Positions 4,755-60,551 of a stretch of DNA of 64,000 nucleotides are shown here, in pieces (the first letter of the stretch is position 1; the number at the start of each line of letters is the position of its first letter). The stretch is from Streptomyces liliiviolaceus (lineage in GTDB: Bacteria > Actinomycetota > Actinomycetes > Streptomycetales > Streptomycetaceae), in assembly GCF_018070025.1 (NCBI RefSeq), contig NZ_JAGPYQ010000001.1, forward strand, positions 3,410,001 through 3,474,000, read 5' to 3'. Position numbers and translations under genes: made by a program. The notes below the pieces were generated by a model. The model saw nothing but the letters and a program-made list of their open reading frames with translations. It did no database searches and was not told the DNA's origin.

Positions 4755-4781
4755 TTCGGCTGCGGGTGGGTGGGGGCTTGT

Positions 4782-4912
4782 CGCGCAGTTCCCCGCGCCC
4801 CTAAAGGCAAAGGACTGCGCCGTTCCCCGCGCCCCTAAAGGCAAAAGACAAAAGATTGCGCCGTTCCCCGCGCCCCTAAGGGCAAAGGACTGCGCCGTTC
4901 CCCGCGCCCCTA
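4782..4912 (+). repeat. Dispersed GC repeat block A (four copies)
   Basis: Four copies of the core GCGCMGTTCCCCGCGCCCCT begin near 4784, 4820, 4858 and 4892, separated by AAAGGCAAAAGA-like spacers. They fill the gap between convergent yceI and the MazG-like gene. The last copy runs up to and supplies the stop codon region of the MazG-like gene. Confidence 0.85.
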
Positions 4913-5263
4913 AAGGGGCTTCCCAGGGGTGGCCGTGTCGGATTCCTGGGAGCGGGCTGTTACGCGTGCCAAGTGGGTGGTGAAGATCTGCTGGGCGTCC
5001 GGCGAGAGTGTTCGTAGTGCTACTGCCGCTGTGATGATCACGTCGCAGAGTTCCGCGCGCACGTCGTCCCACGTGTGCGACACGCCCTTGCGGGGGTTCT
5101 GGCCGGTGGCGCCGATGACCGCCTCGGCGACCTCGCCCACCTCCTCCGAGAGCTTCAGCATCCGCAGGAGGAGGGTCTCCTGGGGCGGGCGGTCCGGCTG
5201 GGTGCGGGCCAGCCAGTCCTGGAGGTGCTCGATGGACTGCCAGAGATCACCGTCGTCGCTCAT
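4910..5263 (-). CDS. MazG-like NTP pyrophosphohydrolase family protein
   Basis: A compact 117-residue all-alpha NTP-PPase-like protein. Metal-binding acidic residues are visible in KLSEEVGEVAEAVIG (about 37-51) and in the second helix ELCDVIITAAVAL (about 72-84), matching the EExxE...ExxD arrangement of MazG/dUTPase-like enzymes that hydrolyse (d)NTPs to monophosphates. It starts five bases after the DoxX stop, so the two probably form one transcript. Substrate unknown. The C-terminal few codons lie at the edge of the dispersed repeat block. Confidence 0.8.
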   Translation of the reverse strand: MSDDGDLWQSIEHLQDWLARTQPDRPPQETLLLRMLKLSEEVGEVAEAVIGATGQNPRKGVSHTWDDVRAELCDVIITAAVALRTLSPDAQQIFTTHLARVTARSQESDTATPGKPL

Positions 5264-5268
5264 GACGG

Positions 5269-5829
5269 TCAGACTGCCACGCCCTCCTCGTCGAACAACT
5301 CGCCCTGCCCGTCGTCCTCCTGGCCTCGCAGCCGCGCGTACCGCGCTCCGATCACCGCCACGGCCGCCGCGGTCGTCACCGCGAGCGCGACCGGCACCAT
5401 CCAGTTCCGGTCGACCGTGTGGCCCAGGGCGTGGTCCAGGGAGATCCGGCCGGGGCCCGCGACGGCCAGGCCCGCCGCCGTGAGGCCCAGGGAGGCCGCG
5501 TGCTCGTAGCCGCCGCTCTGCGCGAAGAAGCCGTTGGGCGCGTGCAGGGCGGCGGCTCCCGCCATCGCCCCGGCTGCGGCCGCTCCGGCCGCCGGGGTGG
5601 CGAGGCCCAGCGCGAGCAGCGTGCCGCCGCCCGTCTCCGCCAGGCCCGCCGCGGCGGCGCTGGCCCGGCCGGGCGCGTACCCCACGGACTCCATGAACTC
5701 GCCGGTCCCGGAGAGGCCGCCCCCGCCGAACCAGCCGAAGAGCTTCTGCGCCCCGTGCGCCGCCAGCACTCCGCCCGTACCGAGGCGGAGCAGCAGCAGT
5801 CCCAGATCGCGTCGGTCGAAACAGGTCAC
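5269..5829 (-). CDS. DoxX-family membrane protein
   Basis: A 186-residue integral membrane protein with four predicted helices. The DoxX pattern is clear: LLLLRLGTGGVLAAHGAQKLFGWFGG at the N-terminus, then a second helix rich in Ala/Gly (AGLAETGGGTLLALGL), and APNGFFAQSGGYEH. I chose GTG at 5829-5827 because the family homology begins at TCFDRRDLGLLLLRLG and GAGGAG lies about 11 bases before it; the open frame extends further upstream with no family similarity. Some DoxX proteins act in redox or sulfur stress at the membrane; the role here is not deducible. The C-terminal tail is acidic (EDDGQGELFDEEG) and cytosolic. Confidence 0.85.
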   Translation of the reverse strand: MTCFDRRDLGLLLLRLGTGGVLAAHGAQKLFGWFGGGGLSGTGEFMESVGYAPGRASAAAAGLAETGGGTLLALGLATPAAGAAAAGAMAGAAALHAPNGFFAQSGGYEHAASLGLTAAGLAVAGPGRISLDHALGHTVDRNWMVPVALAVTTAAAVAVIGARYARLRGQEDDGQGELFDEEGVAV

Positions 5830-5960
5830 GGTTCCCGTCACTCCTCGCAGGTCACAGCATGGATGCGTCTGCTCACCGTCGCACCGGACCGCCGTCCTGG
5901 CCCTGGCCCGCGCCGCCGTTCGAGTGACCGGTGCGACCGGCCGCGACCGCCTCGACCGCG

Positions 5961-5992
5961 AGAGGCCGCCCACCGGCGAGGGTGAGCGGCCT
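5961..5992 (-). terminator. Possible hairpin after the ABC exporter genes
   Basis: GAGGCCGC (5961-5968) pairs with GCGGCCTC (5985-5992) just past the stop of the ATPase gene, which is transcribed leftwards. There is no T tract, so it is a weak terminator call. Confidence 0.35.
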
Positions 5993-6024
5993 CCCGCAAC
6001 GCCGTACGGGGGCGGGCGGACCGG

Positions 6025-6717
6025 TCAGAGCGCGGGCTGCGGCTGCTGTTCGGTCAGCGCGATCCGGCCCTTCCTGATCGTCGCGAGCCGGGGTGCGCGC
6101 CGGGCGATCGACGAGTCGTGCGTGACCATGATGAACGTCAGCCCGTGCTCCCTCCACAGCCCTTCCAGCAGGGCCATGATGTCGTCGCGGGTGCCCTCGT
6201 CGAGGTTGCCCGTGGGTTCGTCGGCGAGCAGCACCTTCGGGTTCTTCACCAGCGCGCGGGCGATCGCGACGCGCTGCTGCTGACCGCCGGACAGCTCGCT
6301 CGGCGCATGGGTGAGGCGGTCACCGAGACCGACCGAACCCAGCGCCTCGGCGGCCTTCGCGCGCCGCTCCGACGGCTTGACCCCGAGCGGTACGAGCGCG
6401 GTCTCGACGTTCTCCTGCGCGGTGAGCGTGGGAATGAGGTTGAACGACTGGAAGATGATGCCGATCTTTTCGGCGCGCACCCGGGTCAGCCGGGCCTCGC
6501 TGATGGACGCGAGGTCCACGCCGTCCAGTTCGACGCTGCCGGAGGACGGGCGGTCCAGGCCGCCGATCATCTGCAGCAGGGTCGACTTGCCGCCGCCGGT
6601 GGGGCCCTGGATGACGAGCTGGTCGCCGTCCTCGATGGTGAGGTCGACGCCGCGCAGCGCCTCCACGGTCTCCTTGCCTCTCGTGTAGTTCTTGGTGACG
6701 CCGGTGAGCTTGTACAT
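6025..6717 (-). CDS. ABC transporter ATP-binding protein, MacB/LolD type
   Basis: A 230-residue cytosolic ATPase. Walker A is GPTGGGKST near 39-47, the Q-loop is FQSFNLIPTLTAQENV, the signature is LSGGQQQRVAIARAL near 142-156, Walker B is VLLADEPTGNLD near 162-173, and the H-loop is VTHD. The Q-loop and GNLD wording match the MacB/LolD/FtsE class, which powers mechanotransmission-type FtsX-like permeases. It lies 60 bp downstream of such a permease gene (6778-8268) and forms one system with it. The cargo is unknown; related pairs handle peptides, lipoproteins or antibiotics. Confidence 0.92.
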   Translation of the reverse strand: MYKLTGVTKNYTRGKETVEALRGVDLTIEDGDQLVIQGPTGGGKSTLLQMIGGLDRPSSGSVELDGVDLASISEARLTRVRAEKIGIIFQSFNLIPTLTAQENVETALVPLGVKPSERRAKAAEALGSVGLGDRLTHAPSELSGGQQQRVAIARALVKNPKVLLADEPTGNLDEGTRDDIMALLEGLWREHGLTFIMVTHDSSIARRAPRLATIRKGRIALTEQQPQPAL

Positions 6718-6777
6718 ACGTCTTCTCCGTAACGAACGTGACGTGACGTGCCGTGCCGTGGTGTTGGGGGGCGGGGG

Positions 6778-8268: not shown

Positions 8269-8447
8269 CCCTGTCCCTAAGGTTCTTGGCGCCCGCTGTG
8301 GGCGCTGCCACAAGCTATGGACGAACCTTTGAGACACCCTGAGTAGGGAATGTGTAAGACCTGAGAATGCGCCCCAGGGAGTCAGAATCCCGTAAGACAG
8401 CTGATTCCGAGCCGATTGAGGGCCACTTCTCAGCTTCGCCCCCTACG

Positions 8448-8521
8448 GGCGCCCCTGAGGGCGCCCCAAAGGGGCGCGGGGAACTGCGCGCCCAGCCCCC
8501 ACGGACCCGCACGGGCAGTCG
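8448..8521 (-). repeat. Dispersed GC repeat block B (single copy)
   Basis: One GGGGCGCGGGGAACTGCGC core at about 8471-8489, preceded by GGGCGCCCC palindromic sequence and followed by CAGCCCCCACGGACCCGCA, the usual extension of this repeat. It ends at the SDR stop codon. The rest of 8269-8447 is the leader of the ABC permease gene and shows nothing I can name. Confidence 0.75.
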
Positions 8522-9343: not shown

Positions 9344-9488
9344 GGCCCCGCAGCGTACGGGAGGCCGTGGTCGACGGTCCGCCATATGGAACTCATCCGT
9401 CCGACATCTGACTGTTGTGTACGTGACAGTCCGCCGTTGACTCTGACCACTCCAATTCCTCGTACAACAACCGTCAGGGGAGGGCCAG

Positions 9489-11135: not shown

Positions 11136-11194
11136 CTCCGCTGGGGTGGGGCGGGGGACTGGCGGTCGTTCGTCGGCTGCGGGCCGGATGTGGC

Positions 11195-11262
11195 TGGTCG
11201 CGCAGTTCCCCGCGCCCCTTAAGGGCGAAAAGATTGCGCAGTTCCCCGCGCCCCTGATCGGG
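11195..11262 (+). repeat. Dispersed GC repeat block C (two copies)
   Basis: Two copies of GCGCAGTTCCCCGCGCCCC, at about 11201 and 11237, in the 138-bp gap between convergent phoD and the Gfo/Idh gene. Confidence 0.8.
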
Positions 11263-11273
11263 CCCGGCCCCTC

Positions 11274-12275: not shown

Positions 12276-12398
12276 GCCCGACCCCTCGCTCCGTGCCGTC
12301 GACGCCCGCGGCGCCCTCGACCGCTTCGACCATCTGTACGAGACCACCCGTACGAGCTGAGAGCATAGGTGGCGGATCACACGGAGAGGGAGGGGCGC

Positions 12399-13766
12399 AT
12401 GCCCGAGCGCGGCCGTACGACGAGGGACCCGGACGTCCCTCGGACCCGCATACCCGGCGCGGCGGTGACCGAGGAGAGCGTGATCGCCGCCTCGGCGCCA
12501 CCGGTACCGCCACCGGTCGCCCGCCGTTCCGTGGGGCTCCTGGTCACGCTCATCCTCGGCGGGCTCACGGCCGTACCGCCGCTGTCCATGGACATGTACC
12601 TCCCGGCCCTCCCGGACGTCACCGACGCGCTGCACGCCTCCGCCGCCACCGTGCAGCTGACGCTCACCGCGTGCCTCGCGGGGATGGCGCTCGGACAGCT
12701 GGTCGTCGGGCCGATGAGCGACAAGTGGGGCCGCAGACGGCCGCTGATCACCGGGCTCGTCGTCTACATCCTCGCCACCGCCGTCTGCGCGATCGCCCCC
12801 ACCATCGAACTCCTCATCGCCTTCCGGCTGCTCCAGGGCCTCGCGGGCGCCGCCGGGATCGTGATCGCGCGGGCCGTCGTACGCGACCTGTACGACGGCG
12901 TGGACATGGCGCGGTTCTTCTCCACGCTCATGCTGATCTCCGGCGTCGCGCCGATCATCGCGCCGCTCATCGGCGGCCAGGTGCTGCGGATCACCGACTG
13001 GCGGGGCGTCTTCTACATCCTGACCGTCATCGGGATCGGGCTCACCGTCGTCGTCTGGCGGCTGCTGCCCGAGACGCTGCCGCCCGCCGAGCGCCATGAC
13101 GGCGGCACCGTCGAGGCGCTGCGCACCATGCGCGGACTGCTCGCCGACCGCGTCTTCACCGGCTACATGCTCACCGGCGGCTTCGCGTTCGCGGCACTCT
13201 TCGCGTACATCTCCGCCTCGCCGTTCGTGGTCCAGGAGATCTACGGCGCCTCCCCGCAGACGTACAGCATCCTCTTCGGCGTCAACTCCGTCGGTCTGGT
13301 GATCGTCGGCCAGATCAACGGCAAGATCCTCGTCGGCCGGGTCAGCCTCGACAAGGTGCTCGCCGTCGGCCTCGCGATCATCACCGTCGCGTCGGCCGCG
13401 CTGCTCCTGATGTCCGTCGGGGCGTTCGGCGAGGTGGGCCTCGTCCCGATCGCCGTCGGCCTCTTCGTGCTCATGTCGGCGATGAGCCTGTGCATGCCCA
13501 ACACCAACGCGCTCGCCCTCATGCGCACCCGGCACTCCGCGGGCTCCGCGTCCGCGCTGCTCGGCACGTCCTCGTTCCTCGTCGGCGCGGTCGCCACCCC
13601 CCTGGTGGGCGTCGCCGGCGAGCACACGGCCGTTCCGATGGCCGTCGTCCAGCTCGCGTGTTCACTGGTCGCCGTCGGCTGCTTCATGGCACTGTGCCGA
13701 CCCTGGCGGAAACAACCGGACGCCATGGCGGGCAAGCGGGCGGGATCGAAGGGAGCGGGGAACTGA
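12399..13766 (+). CDS. Bcr/CflA-type MFS drug exporter
   Basis: A 455-residue, 12-helix proton antiporter. Helix 1 contains LTAVPPLSMDMYLPALPDVT, the Bcr/CflA family signature, and the loop 2-3 motif is GPMSDKWGRRRPLI. ATG 12399 has GGAGGGG five bases upstream; an in-frame GTG at 12369 would add ten residues. Known family members export bicyclomycin, chloramphenicol or sulfonamides; the substrate here is unknown. Its last codons overlap the start of the serine hydrolase gene by three bases (CTGA). Confidence 0.88.
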   Translation: MPERGRTTRDPDVPRTRIPGAAVTEESVIAASAPPVPPPVARRSVGLLVTLILGGLTAVPPLSMDMYLPALPDVTDALHASAATVQLTLTACLAGMALGQLVVGPMSDKWGRRRPLITGLVVYILATAVCAIAPTIELLIAFRLLQGLAGAAGIVIARAVVRDLYDGVDMARFFSTLMLISGVAPIIAPLIGGQVLRITDWRGVFYILTVIGIGLTVVVWRLLPETLPPAERHDGGTVEALRTMRGLLADRVFTGYMLTGGFAFAALFAYISASPFVVQEIYGASPQTYSILFGVNSVGLVIVGQINGKILVGRVSLDKVLAVGLAIITVASAALLLMSVGAFGEVGLVPIAVGLFVLMSAMSLCMPNTNALALMRTRHSAGSASALLGTSSFLVGAVATPLVGVAGEHTAVPMAVVQLACSLVAVGCFMALCRPWRKQPDAMAGKRAGSKGAGN

Positions 13767-14896
13767 GCGCACCGAGACTGCGCCCCGGCACGGCGGAACG
13801 TGCCGGGCTCGACCCCGGGGAACTCGACACTCTGGTACGGGAGTTCCGCGCGATCACCGCCGGGGACCGGCCCTGGGCCGCGGGCGCCGTACTGGTCGCC
13901 GGACGCGGGCCCGTGATCGCCGTCGAGGAGGCGGCGGGCTGGGCGGTGCGTTACCTCGCGTACGACGAGGACACGGACGCCGGTGTGGAACTGCCGCGCG
14001 GCGAACGCGTGCCGATGACCGTCCGCACGCCCTTCGACCTGGCCTCCCTCACGAAGCTCTTCACCAGCGTCGCGGCCGTCCAGCAACTGGAGCGCGGCAC
14101 GCTGGGCATCGACGCGCGCGTGGGGGCGTACCTGCCGGGCTTCGCCGCCGCCGCCGAGTACGGCATCACCGTGCGGCACCTGCTCACCCACACCTCCGGG
14201 CTGCGGCCCGAACTCCCGCTCTACGACTGCCGGGACGACCGGGCACGGTTCGCCCTGCTCCGCGCGGAGAAGCCGGTGACGGCACCCGGCGTCGCGTACG
14301 GCTACTCGGACCTCAACATGCTGCTGCTCCAGCAGGTCCTCGAACGGATCACCCGGCGCCCGCTCGACGCCCTCGTCCGGGACGGGATCACCCGGCCCCT
14401 CGGCATGACCGACACCGCCTTCGGCCCCTGCCCCGGCGCCGCCGCCACCGAGGACCAGCGGCGGCCCTGGGCCAAGGCCGACCGGGGCATGCTGCGGGGC
14501 ACCGTCCACGACGAGAACGCGTGGGCGCTCGGCGGGGTCGCGGGGCACGCCGGCCTCTTCTCGACCGCCGCCGACCTCGCCGTCCTGTGCCGCACCCTCC
14601 TCGCGGGCGGCTCCTACGGCACCGCCCGCATCCTCGGCCCCGACTACGTCGAACTGCTCCTGTCCCCGCCCGGCCTCGGCTTCGCCCTCGACCAGCCGTC
14701 GTTCATGGGCGCCCTCGCCGGCCACGGAGCCGCGGGCCACACGGGCTTCACGGGTACGTCGCTGGTGATGGACCCCTCGACGGACACGTTCCTGGTGCTC
14801 CTGGCGAACACGGTCCATCCGCGCCGCCGGCCCGCGGACCACGGACCGCGCGCGGCGGCGGCCACCCGGCTGGCCAGGGCGGTGCGGGGAGCCTGA
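13763..14896 (+). CDS. Serine hydrolase of the beta-lactamase/PBP family, likely CTG start
   Basis: A 377-residue class-C-like serine hydrolase. The SxxK motif is SLTK near 96, the second motif is YSD (GYGYSDLN) near 180, and an HTG box (HTGFTGTS) stands near 329 where the KTG triad would be. No signal peptide or membrane segment is visible, so it may be cytosolic. Homology reaches back to LSAPRLRPGTAERAGLDPGELD, yet there is no in-frame ATG, GTG or TTG near that point. CTG at 13763 overlaps the exporter's TGA as CTGA and has GGGAGCGGGG seven bases upstream, so I use it. An in-frame GTG about 100 bp upstream inside the exporter gene is the alternative. The substrate (D-amino peptide or ester) is unknown. 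Confidence 0.8.
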   Translation: MSAPRLRPGTAERAGLDPGELDTLVREFRAITAGDRPWAAGAVLVAGRGPVIAVEEAAGWAVRYLAYDEDTDAGVELPRGERVPMTVRTPFDLASLTKLFTSVAAVQQLERGTLGIDARVGAYLPGFAAAAEYGITVRHLLTHTSGLRPELPLYDCRDDRARFALLRAEKPVTAPGVAYGYSDLNMLLLQQVLERITRRPLDALVRDGITRPLGMTDTAFGPCPGAAATEDQRRPWAKADRGMLRGTVHDENAWALGGVAGHAGLFSTAADLAVLCRTLLAGGSYGTARILGPDYVELLLSPPGLGFALDQPSFMGALAGHGAAGHTGFTGTSLVMDPSTDTFLVLLANTVHPRRRPADHGPRAAAATRLARAVRGA

Positions 14897-15958: not shown

Positions 15959-15963
15959 GGGCG

Positions 15964-16158
15964 TTTTTCCTCGCCCCCGCCGCCCCTACCCGTCCCGTCA
16001 CTGACTCGGGGGCCAGCCCCCGAACCCCCGGTCCTCAAACGCCGGACGGGCTGAAAGACATCTTTCAGCCCGTCCGGCGTTTGAGGACAAAGGGGGGAGA
16101 GGGGGCGCAGCCCCCATGTGTGGACGGGAACGGGTAGGGGCGGCGGGGGCGAGGAAAA
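15964..16158. repeat. Composite palindromic element with a perfect 28-bp stem
   Basis: The outer arms, TTTTTCCTCGCCCCCGCCGC... at 15964-16000 and its near-complement at 16121-16158, flank an inner perfect hairpin at 16031-16088. That hairpin has 28-bp arms around a two-base loop, with ACGCCGGACGGGCTGAAAGA inside each arm. Between them lie GGGGGCC/GGGGGC inverted motifs. The right arm reaches to 47 bp before the TetR ATG. A right-arm-only relative occurs at about 44057-44112. Confidence 0.8.
16031..16088. terminator. Strong hairpin downstream of the Rsm22-family gene
   Basis: The arms 16031-16058 and 16061-16088 are perfect reverse complements, separated by CA. With 28 base pairs it would fold very stably in RNA of either strand and could end transcription of the upstream gene. 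No T tract follows, so its role as a terminator is inferred from stability and position. Confidence 0.6.
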
Positions 16159-18634: not shown

Positions 18635-18748
18635 GGTCGCGCAGTTCCCCGCGCCCCTAAAAGACAAAAGACTGCGCCGTTCCCCGCGCCCCTTGGGGGC
18701 TGCGCCCCCGAAAGACAAAAGATTGCGCCGTTCCCCGCGCCCCTGACT
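18635..18748 (+). repeat. Dispersed GC repeat block D (three copies)
   Basis: Three copies of GCGCMGTTCCCCGCGCCCC, starting near 18639, 18675 and 18724, in the 174-bp gap between the convergent prim-pol and lipoprotein genes. GGGGGCTGCGCCCCC adds a small palindrome between copies 2 and 3. Confidence 0.8.
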
Positions 18749-26623: not shown

Positions 26624-26695
26624 GGGCCCTGCGCGGGCGGGGCTGCGCCCGTCAAGGGCGCGGGGAACTGCGCGACGAGCCACGACGAACCGTCA
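26624..26695 (-). repeat. Dispersed GC repeat block E, in the hmuT leader
   Basis: One GGGCGCGGGGAACTGCGCG core near 26657-26675, preceded by GCGGGCGGGGCTGCGCCCG and followed by ACGAGCCACGACGAACCG. It lies between the iron box (26761) and the hmuT start (26576), so it should be part of the hmuT transcript leader. Confidence 0.75.
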
Positions 26696-29939: not shown

Positions 29940-30584
29940 GTGACTGATTACGACGTGGTGCGGGTCTTCTGCGGGCCCCGCGGCGAGTACGGCAATGAAC
30001 TCGGGGTGGTACGGGAGGGTTCCGTCCTCCCCGAGCGGGACGAACGGCAGGCGTTCGCGGCGAAACTCGGCTTCAGCGAGACGGTGTTCGTCGACGACCC
30101 CGAGCGCGGGGTCATCGACATCTACACGCCCAGCGTGCGGCTGCCGTTCGCCGGATACCCCTGCGTGGGCGTGGCCTGGCTGCTGGACGTACCCGAACTC
30201 GTCACGCCCGCGGGCGTGGTGGGCACCCGGCTGGACGGCGAGTTCACCTGGATCGAGGCGCGCCCGGAGTGGCCGCGGCCGCGCACGCTGCGGCAGTTCG
30301 CCACCGCGGCCGAGGTCGAGGCGCTGGCCGTGCCGCCTGCGGGGGAGTGGCTGTACGCCTGGGCGTGGGAGGACGAGGCGGCGGGACGCGTCCGGGCGCG
30401 CGGCTTCCCTGGCCGGGGTGACGGCATCGACGAGGACGAGGCGACGGGTGCGGCGGCCCTCCAGCTGACAGCGCAGCTGGGGCGTGCCCTGAACATCGTC
30501 CAGGGCACGGGCTCCCAACTCCTCACGGCGCCGCAGCCGGAAGGCTGGATAGAACTGGGCGGCAGGGTCTTCCTGGAACGCTGA
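29940..30584 (+). CDS. Short PhzF-family isomerase-like protein
   Basis: A 214-residue relative of PhzF/diaminopimelate-epimerase-fold enzymes. Visible family blocks are VVRVFCGPRGEYGNELGVV at the start, LPFAGYPCVGVAWLL in the middle (the place of the usual FCGHAT block), and EDEATGAAALQLTAQLG near the end. The usual catalytic Glu of PhzF (family motif SPxxE before the barrel) is replaced by KLGFSETVFVDD, which keeps SET with a Glu. At 214 residues it is shorter than the usual ~260-300. GTG 29940 is used; TTG 29928 is possible. Its position between HtaA genes and heme oxygenase may be incidental: no iron box lies nearby. Confidence 0.75.
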   Translation: MTDYDVVRVFCGPRGEYGNELGVVREGSVLPERDERQAFAAKLGFSETVFVDDPERGVIDIYTPSVRLPFAGYPCVGVAWLLDVPELVTPAGVVGTRLDGEFTWIEARPEWPRPRTLRQFATAAEVEALAVPPAGEWLYAWAWEDEAAGRVRARGFPGRGDGIDEDEATGAAALQLTAQLGRALNIVQGTGSQLLTAPQPEGWIELGGRVFLER

Positions 30585-30629
30585 CACGTTTTGGTCGGGG
30601 CGGGTGGGGGATGTCCAGCGCGGGTCCGT

Positions 30630-31020
30630 TGTGGCTGGCCGCGCAGTTCCCCGCGCCCCTTAAAGGCGGGGCTGCGCCCCGGCCTGTGGTCCCGTGCGGG
30701 TCCGGTGGGGGTTGGCCGCGCAGTTCCCCGCGCCCCTTAAAGGACGGGGCTGCGCCCCGGCCTGTGGTCCCGTGCGGGTCCGGTGGGGGTTGGCCGCGCA
30801 GTTCCCCGCGCCCCTCAAAGGCGGGGCTGCGCCCCGGCCTTTGCCCCGGCCTTTGCCTTTGCCTCTGCGCCCTCAGGGGCGCGGTTGCGCTTCGGCCTTC
30901 GCCCACCCAGGGGCGCGGGGAACTGCGCAATCTTTTGCTTTTCGCCCTTAGGGGCGCGGGGAACGGCGCAGTCTTTTGTTTTTAGGGGCGCGGGGAACTG
31001 CGCGGCCAGCCACAACGGAC
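30630..31020. repeat. Dispersed GC repeat block F (six copies, tandem array)
   Basis: This block fills the 468-bp gap between convergent phzF-like and heme oxygenase genes; I see no gene in it. Three copies of GCGCAGTTCCCCGCGCCCCT begin at 30641, 30718 and 30796 as part of a 77-78-bp tandem unit that also contains GGGGCTGCGCCCCGGCC and GTGCGGGTCCGGTGGGGGTT. Three inverted copies (GGGGCGCGGGGAACTGCGC type) follow at 30910, 30951 and 30985. The two sets point towards each other. Confidence 0.85.
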
Positions 31021-31052
31021 CCGCACCCGAGAACGCGACCCCCAGTGGAACG

Positions 31053-31712
31053 TCACGCGCTGATGCGGAACTCTTCTCCCAGTGCCCGAAAAACCCCCGT
31101 GTTCAGCGCGAACGCCCGCCGGCACTCGGCAACAACCCGCTGCTTCTCCAGGTCGTCCACGGGAAGCGCGTCAAGCAACTCCCGATACCCCCGCTTGAAC
31201 GCGGCCGGATTCCCGATGTCCTCGAAGACATAGAACCGCACCCCGTCCCCCTTGCGCGCGAACCCCCACGTCTTCTCCGCCGTCCCGCGAATGATCTGCC
31301 CGCCGGAGAGATCCCCGAGATACCGCGTGTAGTGATGCGCCACGTACCCGCCGGTCCACGTACGCGCGCACTCGGCGACCCGCGCCGCGTACTCCAGCGT
31401 CGCCGGCAGCGCGGTGACGCCGTCCCGCCACCCCGGCCCCCGCAGATGGGCGAGGTCCCGCTCCAGCGAGGCGAGCCGCATCAGCTCGGGCTGGATGAAC
31501 GGCCCCGCCACCGGGTCGCCGGAAAGATCCCGCGCACCCGACTCCAGCGCCTCGTACACGAACCACAGCTGTTCCGTGTAGCGCGCGTACGCCTCCACGC
31601 CGAGCCTGCCGCCGAGCAGGTCGCTCATGAAGGTCGAGGTCTCCGCCTCCACGTGCTGCTCGTGGGACGCGGTGCGGATGAGCGTCGAGAACGGCGTACT
31701 CGACGATGTCAT
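31053..31712 (-). CDS. hmuO: Biliverdin-producing heme oxygenase
   Basis: A 219-residue alpha-helical heme oxygenase that would open heme to biliverdin, CO and iron. The proximal helix has THSHEQHVEAE-like sequence (ASHEQHVEAETSTFM near 15-29, axial His near 17-20). The distal helix has the flexible Gly motif YLGDLSGGQIIRG near 129-141. Length and motifs match corynebacterial HmuO. An excellent iron box stands 49 bp upstream of the ATG. With HmuTUV and two HtaA proteins 4-6 kb away, it completes an import-and-degrade route for heme iron. Confidence 0.95.
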   Translation of the reverse strand: MTSSSTPFSTLIRTASHEQHVEAETSTFMSDLLGGRLGVEAYARYTEQLWFVYEALESGARDLSGDPVAGPFIQPELMRLASLERDLAHLRGPGWRDGVTALPATLEYAARVAECARTWTGGYVAHHYTRYLGDLSGGQIIRGTAEKTWGFARKGDGVRFYVFEDIGNPAAFKRGYRELLDALPVDDLEKQRVVAECRRAFALNTGVFRALGEEFRISA

Positions 31713-33099: not shown

Positions 33100-33247
33100 C
33101 CCCCCCCAGGGGCGCGGGGAACGGCGCAATCTTTTGCCTTTCGCCCTCAGGGGCGCGGGGAACAGCGCAGTCTTTGGTCTTTGCTTTTAGGGGCGCGGGG
33201 AACTGCGCAGTCTTTTGGCTTTCAAGGGGGCGCGGGGAACCGCCCGC
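33100..33247 (-). repeat. Dispersed GC repeat block G (four copies)
   Basis: Four copies of GGGGCGCGGGGAAC-GCGC, near 33111, 33152, 33190 and 33229, all in one orientation and separated by CAATCTTTTGCCTTT-like spacers. They fill the 206-bp gap between the convergent small gene and the MFS gene. The last copy ends at the MFS stop. Confidence 0.8.
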
Positions 33248-43911: not shown

Positions 43912-44112
43912 AAAAGATTGCGCAGTTCCCCGCGCCCCTGAAAAACGAGGCCCAGCGTCGGCCGACGCCCGGTGGGGGCGGGCCTGAACGATTGCGCAGT
44001 TCCCCGCGCCCCCAGGTACCTGGGGGCGCGGGGAACTGCGCAAAAGGGGGACGAGGGGGCGGAGCCCCCATGCAGTGACGGGATGGGTAGGGGCGGCGGG
44101 GGCGGGAAAAAA
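43912..44112. repeat. Dispersed GC repeat block H with a perfect 52-bp palindrome
   Basis: The 335-bp gap 43838-44172 between drrA-like and panB has no gene. It holds a GCGCAGTTCCCCGCGCCCC copy near 43921. A perfect palindrome spans 43992-44043, made of one direct and one inverted repeat copy meeting at GGTACC. A GAGGGGGCGGAGCCCCCATG...GGGTAGGGGCGGCGGGGGCG segment (44054-44106) matches the right arm of the composite element at 16101-16158. The panB terminator follows. Confidence 0.85.
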
Positions 44113-44148
44113 CGGCAGCCCGCCGACGGGGGAAATCGGCGGGCTGCC
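44106..44148 (-). terminator. Intrinsic terminator of panB
   Basis: GGCAGCCCGCCGA (44114-44126) pairs with TCGGCGGGCTGCC (44136-44148). On the minus strand, the hairpin is followed by a six-T run at 44112-44107. It lies about 25 bp past the panB stop. Confidence 0.9.
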
Positions 44149-44172: not shown

Positions 44173-45039
44173 TCAGTGGACGGAGTGCTCCTCCTGAGGG
44201 AACGTTCCGCCGATGACATCGTCGGCGAACGCCTTCGCCGCATCCCCCATGACCCGCCGCAGATCCGCATACTGCTTCACGAACCGCGGCATCTTCCCAC
44301 CCGTGAGCCCGAGCATGTCGGTCCACACGAGCACCTGCGCGTCCGTCTCGGCCCCCGCCCCGATCCCGACGGTCGGAATGTGCAGCACACGCGTGACCTC
44401 GGCGGCCAGCTCCGCCGGCACGAGCTCCAGCACGACGGCGAACGCCCCCGCGTCCTGCACGGCCTTGGCGTCACGCAGCAACTGCTGAGCCGCCTCCTCG
44501 CCGCGCCCCTGCACCCGGTATCCCATGGAGTTCACGGACTGCGGCGTGAGCCCGATGTGCGCCATCACCGGGATGCCCGACTCCACGAGCAGCTTGATCT
44601 GCTCGTGCGAGCGCTCACCGCCCTCCAGCTTCACGGCCCCGACCCCGGCCTCCTTCACCAGCCGCATGGCCGAGCGCAGCGCCTGCACCGGCCCCTCCTG
44701 GTACGACCCGAACGGCAGGTCGCCCACGATGAGGGCGCGCGAGGTGCCCCGGACGACCGCGGCCGACAGCATGGCCATCTCGTCGAGGGTGACGGGCACG
44801 GTGGTCTCGTAGCCCAGGTGACAGTTGCCCGCGGAGTCGCCGACGAGCATGACCGGGATGCCGGCCTCGTCGAAGACGGACGCGGTCATCGCGTCGTACG
44901 CGGTGAGCATCGGCCACTTCTCGCCGCGCTCCTTGGCCACCGTGATGTCGCGGACAGTGATACGGCGTGTGCCCTTGCCTCCGTACAGCGCCCTGTTGCT
45001 GCTGTCGGTGGTGTTCTGGGCAGCCGAAAACTGCGTCAT
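44173..45039 (-). CDS. panB: 3-methyl-2-oxobutanoate hydroxymethyltransferase
   Basis: A 288-residue enzyme for the first step of pantothenate synthesis: it adds a hydroxymethyl group from methylene-tetrahydrofolate to ketoisovalerate. Family blocks seen: MLTAYDAMTASVFDEAGIPVMLVGDSAGNCHLGYETTVPVTLDEM, VGDLPFGSY, GAVKLEGG, PVMAHIGLTPQSV, IPTVGIGAGAETDAQVLVWTDMLG. The metal/substrate residues Asp, Lys and Glu of PanB are present. ATG 45039 has AGAAGGAG eight bases upstream; an ATG at 45060 is less likely. The upstream gap contains a GTGGCAC-CTC-GTGCCAC inverted repeat at 45100-45116. Confidence 0.95.
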   Translation of the reverse strand: MTQFSAAQNTTDSSNRALYGGKGTRRITVRDITVAKERGEKWPMLTAYDAMTASVFDEAGIPVMLVGDSAGNCHLGYETTVPVTLDEMAMLSAAVVRGTSRALIVGDLPFGSYQEGPVQALRSAMRLVKEAGVGAVKLEGGERSHEQIKLLVESGIPVMAHIGLTPQSVNSMGYRVQGRGEEAAQQLLRDAKAVQDAGAFAVVLELVPAELAAEVTRVLHIPTVGIGAGAETDAQVLVWTDMLGLTGGKMPRFVKQYADLRRVMGDAAKAFADDVIGGTFPQEEHSVH

Positions 45040-46833: not shown

Positions 46834-46834
46834 A

Positions 46835-46886
46835 GCGCCCTGAAGGGGCGCGGGGAACTGCGCGGCCAGCCACAACGAACCCGCAC
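46835..46886 (-). repeat. Dispersed GC repeat block I (single copy)
   Basis: One GGGGCGCGGGGAACTGCGC core near 46847-46865 with the extension GGCCAGCCACAACGAACCCGC. It lies between the exporter and its TetR gene, starting two bases after the exporter stop. Confidence 0.75.
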
Positions 46887-50337: not shown

Positions 50338-50440
50338 GAGGAGTGCCGCCGGCGGGATAAGCAGTTGAGGGGCACCGGCATCCCTGTTACAAACGTGGGC
50401 CGGCCAGCGGGTGGCCGGCGGAACGAGCGGGGTGCATCGC

Positions 50441-51796
50441 GTGGCAGGGGCGAGGACGGGCGGCGTTACGGGCCGGAGCGGCTTACGGCGCGGACGCCGG
50501 CCGCTGCTGGCGGCGGTGGCGGTCGACTCGCTGGGCACGGGCCTGTACCTCCCGCTGTCCATGCTGTACTTCCTGCGGGTCACCGATCTGGACCTGGTGG
50601 CGATCGGCGTGCTCACCAGTGTGAGCACCGCCCTGACCCTGCCGCTGCCGCTGGTCGTCGGAAAGCTGGTCGACCGGTTCGGGCCCCGGCTGGTGGTCGC
50701 CGCCGGGCAGGCGCTGCAAGGGACCGGGTTCCTGCTCTACCTGCTCGTCTCGGGAACGGGTTCGCTGGTGGCCGCGATGCTGGTGACCACGGCGGGCCTG
50801 CGCGTCTACTGGTCCTCGGTCTTCACCCTCATCGCGGACCTGGCGGACGCCGAGAGCGCGGACGCGGCGGGCACCGACGCGGTGGGGGCGGCCGTGGTGG
50901 GGGCGGACGGCAAGGACCACTGGTTCGCCCGTGCCGGGATGATCCGGGAAGCGGGCGCGGGCGGCGGTGCCCTGCTCGCGGGCGCGGTGCTCGCCGTCGA
51001 CTCGGCACGCGTCTACGACGGACTGATCCTCGCCTCCGGGCTGGCGTTCCTGGCCGCCGCGCTGGTGGTCGCCCTCGCAGTACCCGCCGTACCGCACGCC
51101 GCCCCACCGGCCGAGGGCCGCTCCGGCTACGGCGCGCTGCTGCGGGACCGCCCCTACCTCGCGCTGATCGCGATCTCCACGATCTTCGCCACGTGCAGCA
51201 CGTTCCTGTCCCTGTCGCTTCCCGTGTACGTCATCCAGGGCCTGTCCGGGCCGGACTGGGCGCCCGGCCCCCTGCTGGCCCTCAACACCCTGCTGCTCGC
51301 CACCTGCACGGCCGCCGTGACCCGCTTCGTGCGGCGCCGCTGCACCCGCGCCCGCGCCATGGCCTGGGCCGGCGGTCTGTGGGCGCTGTGGTGCGCCGCG
51401 TCCGCGTCGGCCGTCCTGCTGCCGTCCCGGGCGCTGGTGCCGTTCCTGGTGGCGGTGGTGGTCTGCTACACCCTCGCGGAGATGGTCTACGGACCCGCCT
51501 CCAACGCGCTCGCCGCGGACGCGGCGCCGACCGGGTCCCGGGGCACCTATCTGGCGGCGTTCCAGTACTCCTTCGCCGGGGCGAACGTCCTCGCGCCCAC
51601 CCTGTTCGGGGTGCTCTTCAGCCGCGACCGCCTGCTTCCCTGGCTCGCCGTCGGCCTGCTCGCCGCACTGGGCGCGGCACTGATGCTGCTCCTGGCCCCC
51701 CGCCTGCCGCGAGAACACGGCCCGCGACAGCGCGTGGCCGCCGCCCCGGCCGTGCCCCCGCAAAACAGAAGCCCGCGCCGTTCCCCGCGCCCCTGA
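50441..51796 (+). CDS. MFS transporter with C-terminus encoded in the dispersed repeat
   Basis: A 451-residue transporter with about 12 helices; VDSLGTGLYLPLSMLYFLRVTDLDLVAIGV and the loop motif LVDRFGPRLVV are recognisable MFS features. GTG 50441 is used because GAGCGGGG lies eight bases upstream; GTG 50411 and 50432 are alternatives. A hydrophilic Asp/Ala/Gly-rich loop (AESADAAGTDAVGAAVVGADGKD) near 140 is unusual. The last ten residues (NRSPRRSPRP) are read from a dispersed GC repeat copy that also supplies the TGA stop. Substrate unknown. Confidence 0.85.
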   Translation: MAGARTGGVTGRSGLRRGRRPLLAAVAVDSLGTGLYLPLSMLYFLRVTDLDLVAIGVLTSVSTALTLPLPLVVGKLVDRFGPRLVVAAGQALQGTGFLLYLLVSGTGSLVAAMLVTTAGLRVYWSSVFTLIADLADAESADAAGTDAVGAAVVGADGKDHWFARAGMIREAGAGGGALLAGAVLAVDSARVYDGLILASGLAFLAAALVVALAVPAVPHAAPPAEGRSGYGALLRDRPYLALIAISTIFATCSTFLSLSLPVYVIQGLSGPDWAPGPLLALNTLLLATCTAAVTRFVRRRCTRARAMAWAGGLWALWCAASASAVLLPSRALVPFLVAVVVCYTLAEMVYGPASNALAADAAPTGSRGTYLAAFQYSFAGANVLAPTLFGVLFSRDRLLPWLAVGLLAALGAALMLLLAPRLPREHGPRQRVAAAPAVPPQNRSPRRSPRP

Positions 51797-52060
51797 GGGC
51801 CACGGGGAACGGCGCGACCGGGCGTGCTTTTCGGGGGCGCGGGGAACTGCGCGCTCAGCCCCCGCGGTCCGCGGTTGACGACGGAGGTGCCGTCGGGCGT
51901 GCCTTTTTGGGGGCGCGGGGAACGGCGCGCTCAGCCCCCGCGGCCTGCGGTTGACGACGGAGTTGTCGTCAGGCGTGCCTTTTCGGGGGCGCGGGGAACG
52001 GCGCGCTCAGCCCCCGCCGGTCCGCAGTCGACGATGGAGGTGCCGTCGGGCGGGAAGAGG
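51770..52060. repeat. Dispersed GC repeat block J (tandem array, 76-bp period)
   Basis: One GCGCCGTTCCCCGCGCCCCT copy covers the end of the MFS gene. Three inverted copies start at 51834, 51910 and 51986, exactly 76 bp apart, in units that also contain GGCGTGCCTTTT and GCGGTTGACGACGGAG. A fourth partial unit follows near 52049. It lies between the convergent MFS and nadE genes. Confidence 0.85.
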
Positions 52061-52071
52061 GGCGCAGCCCG

Positions 52072-53826: not shown

Positions 53827-53919
53827 GATCCCCAGTGTAATCGTCAATCCGACACAATGGGCTGCGGCCCCTGCGCACGCCCTGCCGGGGGTTGCCTGCG
53901 CCCTGCCTCCGGCTGCGGG

Positions 53920-54340
53920 CCGGTGGGGGTTGCCCGCGCAGTTCCCCGCGCCCCTGGGGGTGCCCCCTCGGGCTCGTCGGTCGGCTGCGGGTCCGGTGGG
54001 GGTTGGCCGCGCAGTTCCCCGCGCCCCTTAAGGGCGACTCGGTGCGCGACGTCCCCCTCGGAGACACGCCCAGCCCCCACCGGCACGCTTTCAGGGGCAC
54101 AGGGATCGACACCCGCAACCCCCACCGGCCCGCTTTTAGGGGCGCGGGGAACTGCGCGCTCAGCCCCCACCGGGCCCGCACCCGAGAACGGCCCGTCTTT
54201 TCAGGGGCGCGGGGAACTGCGCAATCTTTGAGGGGCGCGAGGGGGCGCATGCCCAGCCCCACCGGGCCCGTCTTTAAGGGGCGCGGGGAACTGCGCGGCC
54301 AGCCTCCACCGGAGCCGCAGTCGAAAGCGACCCGCTCAGC
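53920..54340. repeat. Dispersed GC repeat block K, between divergent nadE and DUF998 genes
   Basis: The 575-bp gap 53827-54401 holds no gene. Two GCGCAGTTCCCCGCGCCCC copies start at 53937 and 54009 (72 bp apart), followed by three inverted copies at 54139, 54204 and 54279. GGTGGGGGTTG and CAGCCCCCACCGG extensions accompany them. This is the only block placed between divergent genes. Confidence 0.85.
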
Positions 54341-54401
54341 CCCGCCGGGCCCGCACCCGAGAACATGCGAAAACAACCCCCCGCCCCGATCATGGGCGTC
54401 A

Positions 54402-56038: not shown

Positions 56039-56055
56039 GGAGAAGCCTCAGCGGC

Positions 56056-57996: not shown

Positions 57997-58125
57997 GGAA
58001 CCCCCAAAGGATCACTGGATGGGGGTCACTCTTGCGATGAACCGTTCATGCCAGGGGAATGGCCGGGACATGGCTGGCCCAAAAACCACCCAAGGAACCG
58101 TATGGGAAGGGCATTTGGGGCGTTA

Positions 58126-58178
58126 TGGATCAGTTGCTGTCCGGTTGTGGATCGGTGGTGGATCGGTCGTGGATCAGT
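58126..58178. promoter_or_regulatory. 11-bp-phased direct-repeat array upstream of the sedolisin gene
   Basis: TGGATCRGT occurs at 58126, 58148, 58159 and 58170, spaced 22, 11 and 11 bp, with a degenerate copy in the missing register. It overlaps the stop of the DUF305 gene and lies 130-182 bp upstream of the sedolisin start. Such helical phasing is usual for binding arrays of OmpR-type response regulators; the binder here is unknown. Confidence 0.5.
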
Positions 58179-58797
58179 TCAGCGGCTTCGCGCCGCGCTG
58201 CTCCAGCAGATCCGAGATCAGCTTCATCTCCGACTCCTGGGCCTGCACCATGCCCTGCGCGAGCCGCCGCTCCACACCGACCTGGCAGCGCTCCACACAC
58301 CCCTTGGCCATGTGCACACCGCCCACGTGATGGGCGTACATGAGCTGCAGATAGCGGACCTCGGCCGCCTTGCCGCTCAGCTTGCGCAGCGCGTCCATCT
58401 CGGTGTTGGTCGCCATGCCCGGCATCAGCGCGCCGTCCTCACCGGACCCCATGCCGGCCATGCCCATCCACTCCATGGGCTCGTCGGCGGACACCTTGGG
58501 CAGCTCCCACAGGTCCAGCCAGCCGAGCATCATGCCGCGCTGGTTGGCCTGGGTCTGCGCGATGTCGTACGCGAGGCGGCGCACCTCCTCGTCGTCGGTG
58601 AGGTCGCGCACGATGTACGACATCTCGACGGCCTGCTGGTGGTGCACGGACATGTCACGGGCGAAACCCGCGTCCGCCGAGTCCGCCGCGGGTGGCCGCA
58701 TCCCGGAGTCGTCGCCGTCGGCGACCGCGTACGTGATCGCCCCGGCCGCCACGAGGACGGCCGCGGCTGCTCCGGTGATCCAGCCCGCGGACTTCAT
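58174..58797 (-). CDS. DUF305 exported metal-related protein
   Basis: A 207-residue protein. The N-terminus MKSAGWITGAAAAVLVAAGAITYAVA is a signal or anchor. The DUF305 (ferritin-like four-helix) domain shows the paired motif FARDMSVHHQQAVEMS near 44-59 and the later LMYAHHVGGVHMAKG near 158-172, His/Met-rich stretches expected to bind metal. A Met-rich loop (PMEWMGMAGMGSG...LMPGM) also suggests copper. ATG 58797 follows GAGGA, five bases after the DUF3105 stop, so the two are co-transcribed. Confidence 0.88.
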   Translation of the reverse strand: MKSAGWITGAAAAVLVAAGAITYAVADGDDSGMRPPAADSADAGFARDMSVHHQQAVEMSYIVRDLTDDEEVRRLAYDIAQTQANQRGMMLGWLDLWELPKVSADEPMEWMGMAGMGSGEDGALMPGMATNTEMDALRKLSGKAAEVRYLQLMYAHHVGGVHMAKGCVERCQVGVERRLAQGMVQAQESEMKLISDLLEQRGAKPLN

Positions 58798-58802
58798 CTT
58801 CC

Positions 58803-59471
58803 TCACTTCGACAGGCCGTTGGTGCAGGCGGCGCCGGGCTCCGGCGTCTGCTCGCCCTGGACGTACGTCTCGAAGAACGTGCCGACGTCCGGGTCGCTCG
58901 CGCTCTTCACCGTCCGCTGGTGACCCCACGCGGAGAGCATGATCGGGTCCTTCTGGTCCTCGACGGGGCTCATCAGCGAGTACGGCGTCTTCTTGACCTT
59001 CTCCGCGAGCGCCTTCACGTCGGCGTCGGACGCCTTGCTGTTGTACGTCACCCAGACCGCGCCGTGCTCCAGCGAGTGCACGGCGTTCTCGTTCTTGATC
59101 GCGTCCTCGTAGACGTCGCCGTTGCAGTTCATCCACACCTGGTTGTGGTCACCGCCGACCGGGGGCTCCATCGGGTACTTCACGTCCTTGGTGACGTGGT
59201 TCTGCGTGAGCTTGGTGCTCCACTTCTTCACGCCGTCCTTGCCCGTGACGAACTTCCCCGACGCCGCCTTCGAGTCGCTCGCCGCGCTGTCGCTGTCGTC
59301 GGACTGCGACTTGATCAGGAACGCGCCACCGGCGACGAGACCGGCGACGACGATCACGCTGGCGGTGATCGTGAGGATCCGGTTGCGCCGCTCGCGGGAC
59401 TGCTCGGCGCGCCGCATCTCCTCTATCCGCGCCTTGCGCGACGCGGACTCTGTCTTCTTGGCGGAACCCAT
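58803..59471 (-). CDS. DUF3105 membrane-anchored protein
   Basis: A 222-residue protein. A basic cytosolic start (GSAKKTESASRKARIEEMRRAEQSRERRNR) leads to one helix (about 32-54), then an extracytoplasmic domain with GGDHNQVWMNCNGDVYEDAIKNENAVHSLEHGAVWVTY (His/Cys-containing DUF3105 core) near 105-142. In Streptomyces it is commonly paired with DUF305, as here. A role in copper handling is inference from the partner's Met/His motifs. The ATG is chosen by GAAGGACCACCCC upstream and by family start. Confidence 0.88.
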   Translation of the reverse strand: MGSAKKTESASRKARIEEMRRAEQSRERRNRILTITASVIVVAGLVAGGAFLIKSQSDDSDSAASDSKAASGKFVTGKDGVKKWSTKLTQNHVTKDVKYPMEPPVGGDHNQVWMNCNGDVYEDAIKNENAVHSLEHGAVWVTYNSKASDADVKALAEKVKKTPYSLMSPVEDQKDPIMLSAWGHQRTVKSASDPDVGTFFETYVQGEQTPEPGAACTNGLSK

Positions 59472-59626
59472 GGGGTGGTCCTTCTGGGGGAAAGGGGCGG
59501 TGGAGTGGTCTGCTGATCGTAGTGGGGGAGGAGGGGTTCCAGGTGGGGAGCCCTGGGGATTGGCCAAATGGTCGGGGCCGCGACAGATAATTTGAAGCCG
59601 GGATGCGCATTATTTACGCTGCCGGT

Positions 59627-60061
59627 ATGCGGCTGTTGCGATCGACCGACCTGGCTCTGCGCGTCCTGATGCGGCTCGCTGTCGCGGAGGACGCCGCGAC
59701 GCCGACGACGCGGGACGTGGCGGCGGCGATGGAGGTGCCGTACACGCATGCGGCGAAGGTGGTCGCCGAGCTCCAGCACCTCGGGCTGCTCTCCGCGCGG
59801 CGGGGGCGCGGGGGTGGGCTCGCGCTCACGGAGGAGGGGCGGGGGGCGTCGGTGGGGGCGGTCGTGCGGGTCTTCGAGGGCGAGGGGGATGTCGTCGACT
59901 GCGAGGGGGCGTCGCCGTGTCCGTTGCACACGGGGTGCCGCCTGCGGGTCGCCTTGCGGCGGGCCCAGGAGGCGTTCTACGCGTCCCTGGACCCGCTGAC
60001 GATCAGGGACATGGTGGCTGCGCCGACGGGTCCGTTGCTGCTGGACATCACGATGAGATGA
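59627..60061 (+). CDS. nsrR: Rrf2-family nitric-oxide-sensing repressor NsrR
   Basis: A 144-residue winged-helix Fe-S regulator. DNA-binding region: MRLLRSTDLALRVLMRLAV at the start and the recognition segment VPYTHAAKVVAELQHLGLLSARRGRGGGLAL. Three Cys with spacing C-x5-C-x5-C (DCEGASPCPLHTGCRL near 92-107) hold the 4Fe-4S cluster, as in Streptomyces NsrR. NO destroys the cluster and releases DNA. It is convergent with hmp, whose promoter has a matching palindrome. ATG 59627 is used; the upstream ATG at 59603 adds eight residues. Confidence 0.93.
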   Translation: MRLLRSTDLALRVLMRLAVAEDAATPTTRDVAAAMEVPYTHAAKVVAELQHLGLLSARRGRGGGLALTEEGRGASVGAVVRVFEGEGDVVDCEGASPCPLHTGCRLRVALRRAQEAFYASLDPLTIRDMVAAPTGPLLLDITMR

Positions 60062-60069
60062 GCGGGCTT

Positions 60070-60510
60070 GTCGGTCGGCTGCGGCCCGGTGGGGGCCGTT
60101 CGCACAGTTCCCCGCGCCCCTTGGGGGGTGCCGCCTCGGGTTTGCCGGTCGGCTGCGGGCCGGTGGGGGTCGGCCGCGCAGTTCCCCGCGCCCCTTTGGG
60201 GCGGGCACAGGTGGCCGTCCGCGCCAGCCCCCACCGGACCCGCTTTTCAGGGGCGCGGGGAACGGCGCAATCGTTGAGGTGCACGAGGAGCGGCGGCCAG
60301 CCCCCACCGGACCCGCTTTCCAGGGGCGCGGGGAACGGCGCAATCCTTGAGGTGCACGAGGAGCGGCGGCCAACCCCCACCGGGCCCGTCTTTCAGGGGC
60401 GCGGGGAACGGCGCAATCTTTAACGAGCACGAGGAGCGGCGGCCAGCCCCCACCGGGCCCGCTTTTCAGGGGCGCGGGGAACGGCGCGGTCAGCCCCCAC
60501 CCACCCGCAG
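60070..60510. repeat. Dispersed GC repeat block L (six copies, exact 73-bp tandem array)
   Basis: The 490-bp gap between convergent nsrR and hmp holds no gene. Two GCRCAGTTCCCCGCGCCCC copies start at 60102 and 60177. Four inverted copies (GGGGCGCGGGGAACGGCGC) start at 60250, 60323, 60396 and 60469, exactly 73 bp apart; their units share TTGAGGTGCACGAGGAGCGG and CCAGCCCCCACCGG. The two sets face each other. Confidence 0.9.
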
Positions 60511-60551
60511 CCAAGGCGCAACCCCGCCCCCTCGGCGAGGCGGAGCCCCTG

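Follow-up and report, generated by a model that had tools for sequence, protein, structure and literature searches.

A mirror-image repeat family with a near-invariant core behind genes of Streptomyces liliiviolaceus and its relatives

Repetitive extragenic palindromic sequences (REPs) lie mostly between convergent or codirectional genes and close to their 3' ends, according to the part of PMC3733652 available to us. The words 'Streptomyces' and 'Actinobacter' do not occur in the texts of PMC3733652 and PMC2817692, and the accessible portion of PMC12306157 gives REP counts for three Actinomycetota species, none of them Streptomyces. In Streptomyces, overlapping 3' transcripts are common (PMC3765725, in excerpt), and Term-seq finds many 3' ends without U-tracts (PMC8269248 and PMC8780764, from the sections at hand). 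Here we describe a short, GC-rich repeat dispersed between the genes of a 64,000-nucleotide stretch, hereafter the window, of the 11.13-Mb genome of Streptomyces liliiviolaceus (contig NZ_JAGPYQ010000001.1; C1:3410001-3474000). This genome is labelled G000, and other G-numbers, such as G002 or G597, are labels of sampled related genomes. We call the repeat family A; its core is GGGGCGCGGGGAACTGCGC, and '<' and '>' stand for its two orientations. Some 40 copies in 12 blocks had been noted in an initial annotation of the window, and our counts agree: the core has 42 matches there at up to three mismatches (0.31 expected), and 41 matches in 12 blocks when its variable base is left free and up to two mismatches are allowed. 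We observe directly the placement of the family, the grammar of its blocks, the constancy of its core, its lineage-specific units, its change of copy number in place and its distribution among genomes.

Placement behind genes

As an exact string, the 16-mer GCGCGGGGAACKGCGC occurs 738 times forward and 756 times in reverse across the genome (1,494 in 11.1 Mb), and its reversed control not at all. Placement was analysed in the window and 77 systematic stretches, together 1,599,489 bp of the same genome, again with the variable base free and at most two mismatches; genes were called with a self-trained caller written for this analysis. This 1.6-Mb sample holds 280 copies, compared with 20 of the reversed pattern, and 261 of the 280 lie in gaps between genes, 12 being well inside called genes. 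Core density falls from 3.87 per kb in convergent gaps (111 copies, 204 gaps) to 0.95 in codirectional gaps (135 copies, 810 gaps) and 0.26 in divergent gaps (15 copies, 192 gaps). Among gaps of at least 150 bp, a copy is present in 31 of 52 convergent, 49 of 313 codirectional and 8 of 152 divergent ones. The preference for convergent gaps, proposed from the window, held in this sample when gaps were stratified by length, the check named in advance as able to refute it, with an odds ratio for convergent over codirectional gaps of 8.6 (chi2 59.6), or 7.1 (chi2 44.9) with the window left out; over divergent gaps the ratios were 35 and 40.7, respectively. The bolder claim that every long convergent gap is filled is true of the window but not of the genome, where 35 of 86 convergent gaps of at least 100 bp, and the 31 of 52 already given for at least 150 bp, contain copies.

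The copies follow gene ends closely. In convergent and codirectional gaps, the first copy lies at a median of about 52 nt past the stop codon, and in codirectional gaps the next start follows the last copy at a median of 130 nt (p=5e-10 for the contrast with the stop distance). In 480 kb of S. uncialis, copies occur in 8 of 22 convergent, 16 of 96 codirectional and 0 of 46 divergent gaps, the convergent excess over divergent gaps being clear (chi2 8.3). They lie farther away there (90 and 131 nt), and the codirectional contrast with the next start gives p=0.068.

Block anatomy and the constant core

Read in the AGTTCCCC sense, outer copies carry a head, TGCGGGNCCGGTGGGGGCTGGTC, ahead of the core, where inner copies have AAAAGAYT. 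Of the 280 sampled copies, 164 were classed as heads, 61 as tails and 55 as others; A occupies the free core position in 127 of the 164 heads, and C in 44 of the 61 tails. Neighbours in the sense direction follow one another as head-head 41 times, head-tail 31, tail-tail 22 and tail-head 5, and the spacing of same-direction copies peaks at 34-36, 41 and 73-75 bp. All '<' copies precede all '>' copies in 32 of 36 mixed blocks of the sample and in 16 of 16 of S. uncialis; in the window, the reported order with AGTTCCCC first is found in all five mixed blocks. Between facing copies there is frequently a symmetric hairpin, for example TGAAAAGCAGGGGCGCAGCCCCGCTTTTCA. A block is a modular mirror image, with outward heads, inner tails and often a symmetric hairpin between the facing cores. 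The further idea that the copies face each other in response to convergent genes did not survive: the same order is seen in codirectional and divergent gaps, and relatives such as G597 have it reversed. Since it also occurs in codirectional and divergent gaps, the facing order belongs to the block itself. The hairpin motif GGGGC-n2-4-GCCCC stands just past the core in 65 of 280 copies and before it in 27, compared with 7 of 515 control gene ends; of its 79 intergenic cases, 57 have a core no more than 100 bp away.

Cores in gaps number 232, 18, 11 and 7 at 0, 1, 2 and 3 mismatches, respectively, against 0, 1, 16 and 60 for the reversed control, and among 114 heads taken from separate blocks the core is near-invariant and the head columns are variable. 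Aligned core sites of the window differ from those of S. dioscori, G109 and G152 at proportions of 0.087, 0.083 and 0.056; for the remainder of the gaps that hold them the proportions are 0.203, 0.293 and 0.340, and for copy-free gaps 0.089, 0.103 and 0.193. In these raw counts, the core changes more slowly than its own gaps and, in two of the three comparisons, hardly more slowly than ordinary gaps. Gaps shared with S. dioscori hold 36 window copies, of which 32 align without gaps and 4 do not; among the 32, 21 are identical, 7 differ at 1-3 sites (5 of them once) and 4 differ at 6-13 sites, in what look like misaligned arrays. Besides selection, homogenisation between copies or recent spread can account for the constant core.

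Seven of the window's blocks lie in convergent gaps, three in codirectional and two in divergent gaps. As had been reported, all seven well-supported convergent gaps of more than 100 bp contain two to six copies, and the remaining convergent pairs overlap or are no more than 75 bp apart by our gene calls. An eighth convergent gap above 100 bp (13766/13951) rests on a weak open reading frame of 72 aa (caller score 4.4) and holds no copy, bar a 3-mismatch match at 13750-13768 across the left gene's end. Of the convergent blocks, block 1 (<<<<, four copies, 4783..4910, minus strand) lies in the gap 4754/4910 between YceI and MazG-like genes, block 3 (<<, two copies, 11200..11254, minus) in 11135/11274 between PhoD and Gfo-Idh-MocA, and block 4 (<<<, three copies, 18639..18743, minus) in 18592/18767. 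Block 6 (<<<>>>, six copies, 30641..31003, both strands), with GGGGCTGCGCCCC hairpins inside, occupies the gap 30584/31053 between PhzF-like and heme oxygenase genes, and block 7 (>>>>, four copies, 33109..33245, plus) the gap 33041/33248. Block 10 (<>>>>, five copies, 51775..52004, both strands) stands in 51796/52072 between a major facilitator superfamily (MFS) transporter and NAD synthase, and block 12 (<<>>>>, six copies, 60102..60487, both strands), an array with a 73-bp period, in 60061/60552 between Rrf2 (nsrR-like) and flavohaemoprotein. When 10 of the 14 flanking proteins of these gaps were tested, Pfam agreed with the labels of the initial annotation for YceI, PhoD, Gfo/Idh/MocA, PhzF-like, heme oxygenase, MFS, NAD synthase, Rrf2 and globin/flavohaemoprotein; MazG scored slightly below the cut-off.

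The codirectional blocks are block 2 (a single >, 8471..8489, plus) in the minus-strand gap 8268/8522, block 8 (<<>, 43920..44041, both strands) in the minus-strand gap 43837/44173 and block 9 (a single >, 46845..46863, plus) in a plus-strand gap, where it starts 12 bp past a stop and S. dioscori has three copies. The inner pair of block 8 (43994-44041) forms a perfect 48-bp palindrome, in which S. dioscori shows one paired change. At about 44109-44148, between the block and the minus-strand gene at 44173, stands what looks like a canonical intrinsic terminator (GGCAGCCCGCCGA...TCGGCGGGCTGCC, T-tract on the minus strand), so block 8 lies beyond it. In divergent gaps there are block 5 (a single >, 26655..26673, plus; gap 26534/26830) and block 11 (<<>>>, 53936..54296, both strands), upstream of NAD synthase.

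Relatives, lineage-specific units and neighbouring families

The family is unevenly distributed. In a genus sample of 150 genomes, our own included, in which drafts may undercount arrays, exact matches number 0 in 44 genomes, 1-4 in 34, 5-49 in 36, 50-299 in 29 and at least 300 in 7; S. dioscori has 1,563, S. uncialis 1,171 and S. beigongshangae 136, and S. cyaneofuscatus, S. atratus and S. lavendulae have none. Restriction to Streptomyces is ruled out. A sample of 200 genomes of the bacterial family covered 16 other genera; in 7 of these some genome exceeds 5 copies, the maximum being 542 in G573, and the other 9 have 3 or fewer. Outside this bacterial family, 354 genomes (of 394 in the class) have at most 2 copies each.

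The 80 NadE relatives kept are all Streptomyces, the nearest being S. dioscori, and a NadE tree groups the window, S. dioscori and G109 with support and places S. uncialis outside. Of 52 gaps shared with S. dioscori, 11 have copies in both genomes and 41 in neither; the pattern differs in 9 of the 11 and the total in 8. Shared gaps number 4 with copies in both and 11 in neither for G109, and 3 and 8 for G152, and three gaps are occupied in all four genomes. In S. flaveus, too diverged for the junctions to be read, four shared gaps are empty in both and one is occupied in the window only. The block at 51775-52004 is outside the shared gaps: in the place of window positions 51796-52071, the S. 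dioscori genome carries an additional gene, about 20 bp before nadE, and no copies, a case of gene gain or loss at a repeat block.

Exact core pairs, counted forward in 21 chosen genomes, reveal units that differ between lineages. Pairs of the order '><' with 70-100 bp between them number 81 in G597, 66 in G570, 40 in G573, 28 in G606, 24 in each of G651 and G671, 14 in G000 and 0 in S. uncialis. Pairs of the order '<>' at the same distance number 78 in G000, 90 in S. dioscori, 61 in G103, 53 in G573 and 1 in G597, and with 10-40 bp between them 114 in G000, 123 in S. dioscori, 51 in G595, 32 in G569 and 0 in G597. Twelve '><' units were inspected, 8 of them from G597 and 3 from S. aurantiacus. 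All eight G597 units have one common centre, GCCCCGCTGGGG (one variant), between A- and T-tracts and in either direction, and the three S. aurantiacus units share another centre. An inverted pair at set spacing with a conserved centre, dispersed in one genome, is a trait of REPINs (paired REPs) and miniature inverted-repeat transposable elements (MITEs), and G597 displays it. The listed units of G573 and G569 have other palindromic centres, and their places look alike in the centre. Eleven of the twelve inspected units are flanked by genes on either side (4 convergent, 7 codirectional, 0 divergent), and the CCCCT side of the core is turned towards the gene, opposite to the blocks of the window, which makes it unlikely that the core holds a strand-specific RNA signal. 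In another genus (G569 and G595), '<>' pairs surround a different palindrome, TGCAACTGGCTCAGTTGCA and variants, apparently without A- or T-tracts.

A second mirror-image repeat, family B (TCCTCAAACGCCGGACGGGCTG and its inverse), unrelated to family A, is also found in convergent and codirectional gaps; in the window it lies at 16032..16087, in the codirectional gap 15958/16205. Family B has 25 copies in 64 nadE loci without the core. Gaps hold 16 of these, convergent ones accounting for 13, codirectional ones for 3 and divergent ones for none; the G000 sample has 5, 14 and 0, respectively. It is patchy, being present in 93 of the 150 genomes with 0 to 186 exact copies; G002 and G051 have 4 and 2 copies of family A and 184 and 173 of family B. 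Four blocks join halves of A and B, and a motif C takes the outermost place in 17 of the 22 blocks where it occurs with A or B (hand count). Inverted pairs and mosaics, a trait of REPs and bacterial interspersed mosaic elements (BIMEs), are thus present, with modules A, B and C combined.

Plasmids were considered as carriers and rejected on contigs C3 (all 92,882 bp) and C4 (80,000 of 91,482 bp), which hold no copy where the density sampled on the chromosome would predict about 30. The head matches 13 records of PLSDB, of which ten were inspected; H5 has no listed genes and H1 and H2 look orthologous, leaving eight independent cases. Seven of these lie in gaps, five in the AGTTCCCC sense at 9-109 nt past a stop; H9 and H11 are antisense, and H12 overlaps an annotated gene start beside an upstream stop. 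The search of phage sequences gave matches at E 0.9 only. As to candidate drivers, PF01797 (Y1 transposase) occurs in 47 of the 150 genomes, with a median of 37 copies in its presence and 1 in its absence (p=0.0009), and PF09344 (Cas7e) in 65, with fewer copies in its presence (median 1 versus 9, p=0.045). Neither explains the high-copy genomes, and both were set aside as drivers. The window's genome has three Cas7e genes (C1:3382486, C1:4419661 and C2:2327667), perhaps in three type I-E loci.

Explanations and likeness to known systems

The chances seem to us roughly even that family A is a spreading, REPIN- or MITE-like family, with the core as recognition word, retained at gene ends and often accompanied by a terminator-like hairpin. 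The constant 19-20-nt core (GCGCAGTTCCCCGCGCCCCT or its complement) would then be the word recognised by a putative amplifying machinery, and the element would consist of two inverted cores around a lineage-dependent centre, which is often a palindrome resembling a terminator hairpin. The form taken in the window's lineage would be a mirror-image block, running from head TGCGGGNCCGGTGGGGGCTGGTC through the core, sometimes tail copies (AAAAGAYT-core), and the centre to the same parts inverted. Copies would survive past stop codons and away from promoters, chiefly between convergent genes, where they would probably have added a two-sided transcript end, tolerated or useful; arrays would afterwards grow and shrink in place. 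Mobility, a recognising enzyme and termination are what we infer here. The initial annotation had offered a transposon-like family as one possibility, which the lineage-specific core-pair units favour; the 52 gaps shared with S. dioscori, without a single difference in presence or absence, do not.

Several results weigh against the spreading account. No empty site or target duplication was seen, with 0 discordant gaps among the 52 shared with S. dioscori, 15 with G109 and 11 with G152. No enzyme was found: PF01797 is absent from 4 of the 7 genomes with at least 300 copies, and the 4 kb around the single PF01797 gene of the window's genome contain no core. The likeness among G597 units seems to continue past the cores, so that the unit may extend beyond them. 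In S. uncialis, the excess of convergent over codirectional gaps is not significant (odds ratio 2.9, chi2 1.3). As to hairpins, strong stems past the core are no commoner than at copy-free gene ends (49 of 280 versus 98 of 515), and terminator-like ends occur in 14 of 76 cases with copies and 16 of 164 without, compared with 10 and 11 after shuffling (convergent gaps). RNA folds of five copies were near those of shuffles or mildly beyond, and no covarying column pair was found in the 114 block-independent heads. A head hairpin is not supported by these folds or by the covariation result, and termination by the blocks is weakly supported by their sequence.

The same gene-end placement could instead mark a dedicated transcript-end element, in which each half of a block acts on the transcript that reaches it from its own side, a host factor reads the core and selection acts to separate convergent transcripts, with mobility secondary or absent. 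We regard this as possible though less probable. It would account for the occupation of the same gaps in related species (three gaps in all four genomes), for the near-invariant core (identical in 21 of the 32 ungapped S. dioscori copies, with 5 differing once) and for the mirror order, and REPs are reported to aid Rho-dependent termination in the part of PMC2817692 we draw on. Some species, however, have no copies, the gene-facing orientation is reversed in G597, against a strand-specific RNA signal, and one-orientation codirectional blocks are weakly biased (25 of 35, p=0.017; 3 of 6 in S. uncialis). Copies in other genera and lineage-specific units tip our assessment from this explanation towards the spreading element. 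A site of chromosome topology is unlikely; the core would then bind gyrase or a nucleoid protein where positive supercoils gather between genes that converge, following a proposal made for E. coli BIME-2. The ranking of convergent over codirectional over divergent gaps, a sequence constant without conserved pairing and the existence of both mirror orders would suit it, and binding of gyrase by BIME-2 is among the findings covered by the same portion of PMC2817692; species without copies and lineage-specific centres would be left unexplained, and no gyrase site is known that requires an exact 19-mer. Two further readings are far less probable still. A DNA uptake signal like those of Neisseria or Haemophilus, maintained by biased uptake, seems very improbable, even if an exact, taxon-limited word that reaches about 1,500 copies and forms inverted pairs at gene ends would resemble one. 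Only 12 of the 280 copies are inside genes, unlike known uptake signals, and natural DNA uptake is not known in Streptomyces. Least credible of all are remnants or targets of a type I-E system of clustered regularly interspaced short palindromic repeats (CRISPR). The core has AGTTCCCCGCGCC in common with the E. coli CRISPR repeat, over 13 letters, and literature matches of shorter core strings were, among the matches listed, largely enterobacterial CRISPR papers; spacing peaks at 34-36, 41 and 73-75, the median of 1 copy with Cas7e against 9 without and its absence from 6 of the 7 high-copy genomes speak against the idea, and the family does not show the traits of such a system (a regular repeat-spacer period, a link to cas genes).

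Going beyond the spreading element as such, we tentatively envisage a putative mobilisation system of Streptomyces and relatives that reads the core and spreads whichever hairpin lies between two cores, so that each lineage would have its own two-sided transcript-end hairpin behind many genes, and families A and B would compete and splice in the same gaps. The family would account for the contents of many convergent gaps in large Streptomyces genomes. It offers hundreds of natural test sites, sister species that share sites but not copy numbers, and relatives with units of another centre and order. An enzyme responsible for its spread, if there is one, would be new and would recognise an exact word; should the blocks prove useful where transcripts end, they could provide parts for the two-sided insulation of gene clusters.

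The 16-mer GCGCGGGGAACKGCGC was not found in literature text, subscription papers and supplements lying outside the search. Four shorter core strings brought up no Streptomyces paper, by title, and queries on Streptomyces repeats, Actinobacteria REPs and bidirectional terminators no description, among the matches listed. Rfam gave no hit in the window at gathering score, and none in 30550-31100 up to E=1. Set beside described systems, family A is like REPs, REPINs and BIMEs in being extragenic, in having hundreds of copies, well over the 100 of that trait (1,494 exact 16-mers), and in its inverted pairs and mosaics (PMC2817692, from the same part), as well as in lying near 3' ends and being uneven among relatives. 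It differs in that the core is not palindromic (4-bp GCGC arms) and is constant across the loop too, and that no palindromic stem is kept by paired changes in the 114 heads, one paired change being seen in one facing pair. A GTAG or CGTC end tag is absent from the consensus of the 280 copies and from that of the 114 heads, no RAYT (REP-associated tyrosine transposase) or Y1 transposase flanked by repeats was found, and there is no Y1/RAYT tie in high-copy genomes; CGTC REPs likewise lack an associated transposase, by the available part of PMC3733652. Family A is MITE-like in its inverted pairs at set spacings, with a common centre in the units inspected, but a target duplication, an empty site and a parent element were not found. 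The cutoRNAs of Streptomyces occupy the same place, the overlapping 3' untranslated regions of convergent genes (PMC3765725, as excerpted), yet they are a class of transcripts, and the word 'repeat' is absent from that text. Many unit centres are hairpins between A- and T-tracts, like Streptomyces intrinsic terminators, whereas standard terminators have no core, heads or tails. By these searches, the family seems undescribed, and in its organisation and lineage-specific units it resembles REPINs or MITEs.

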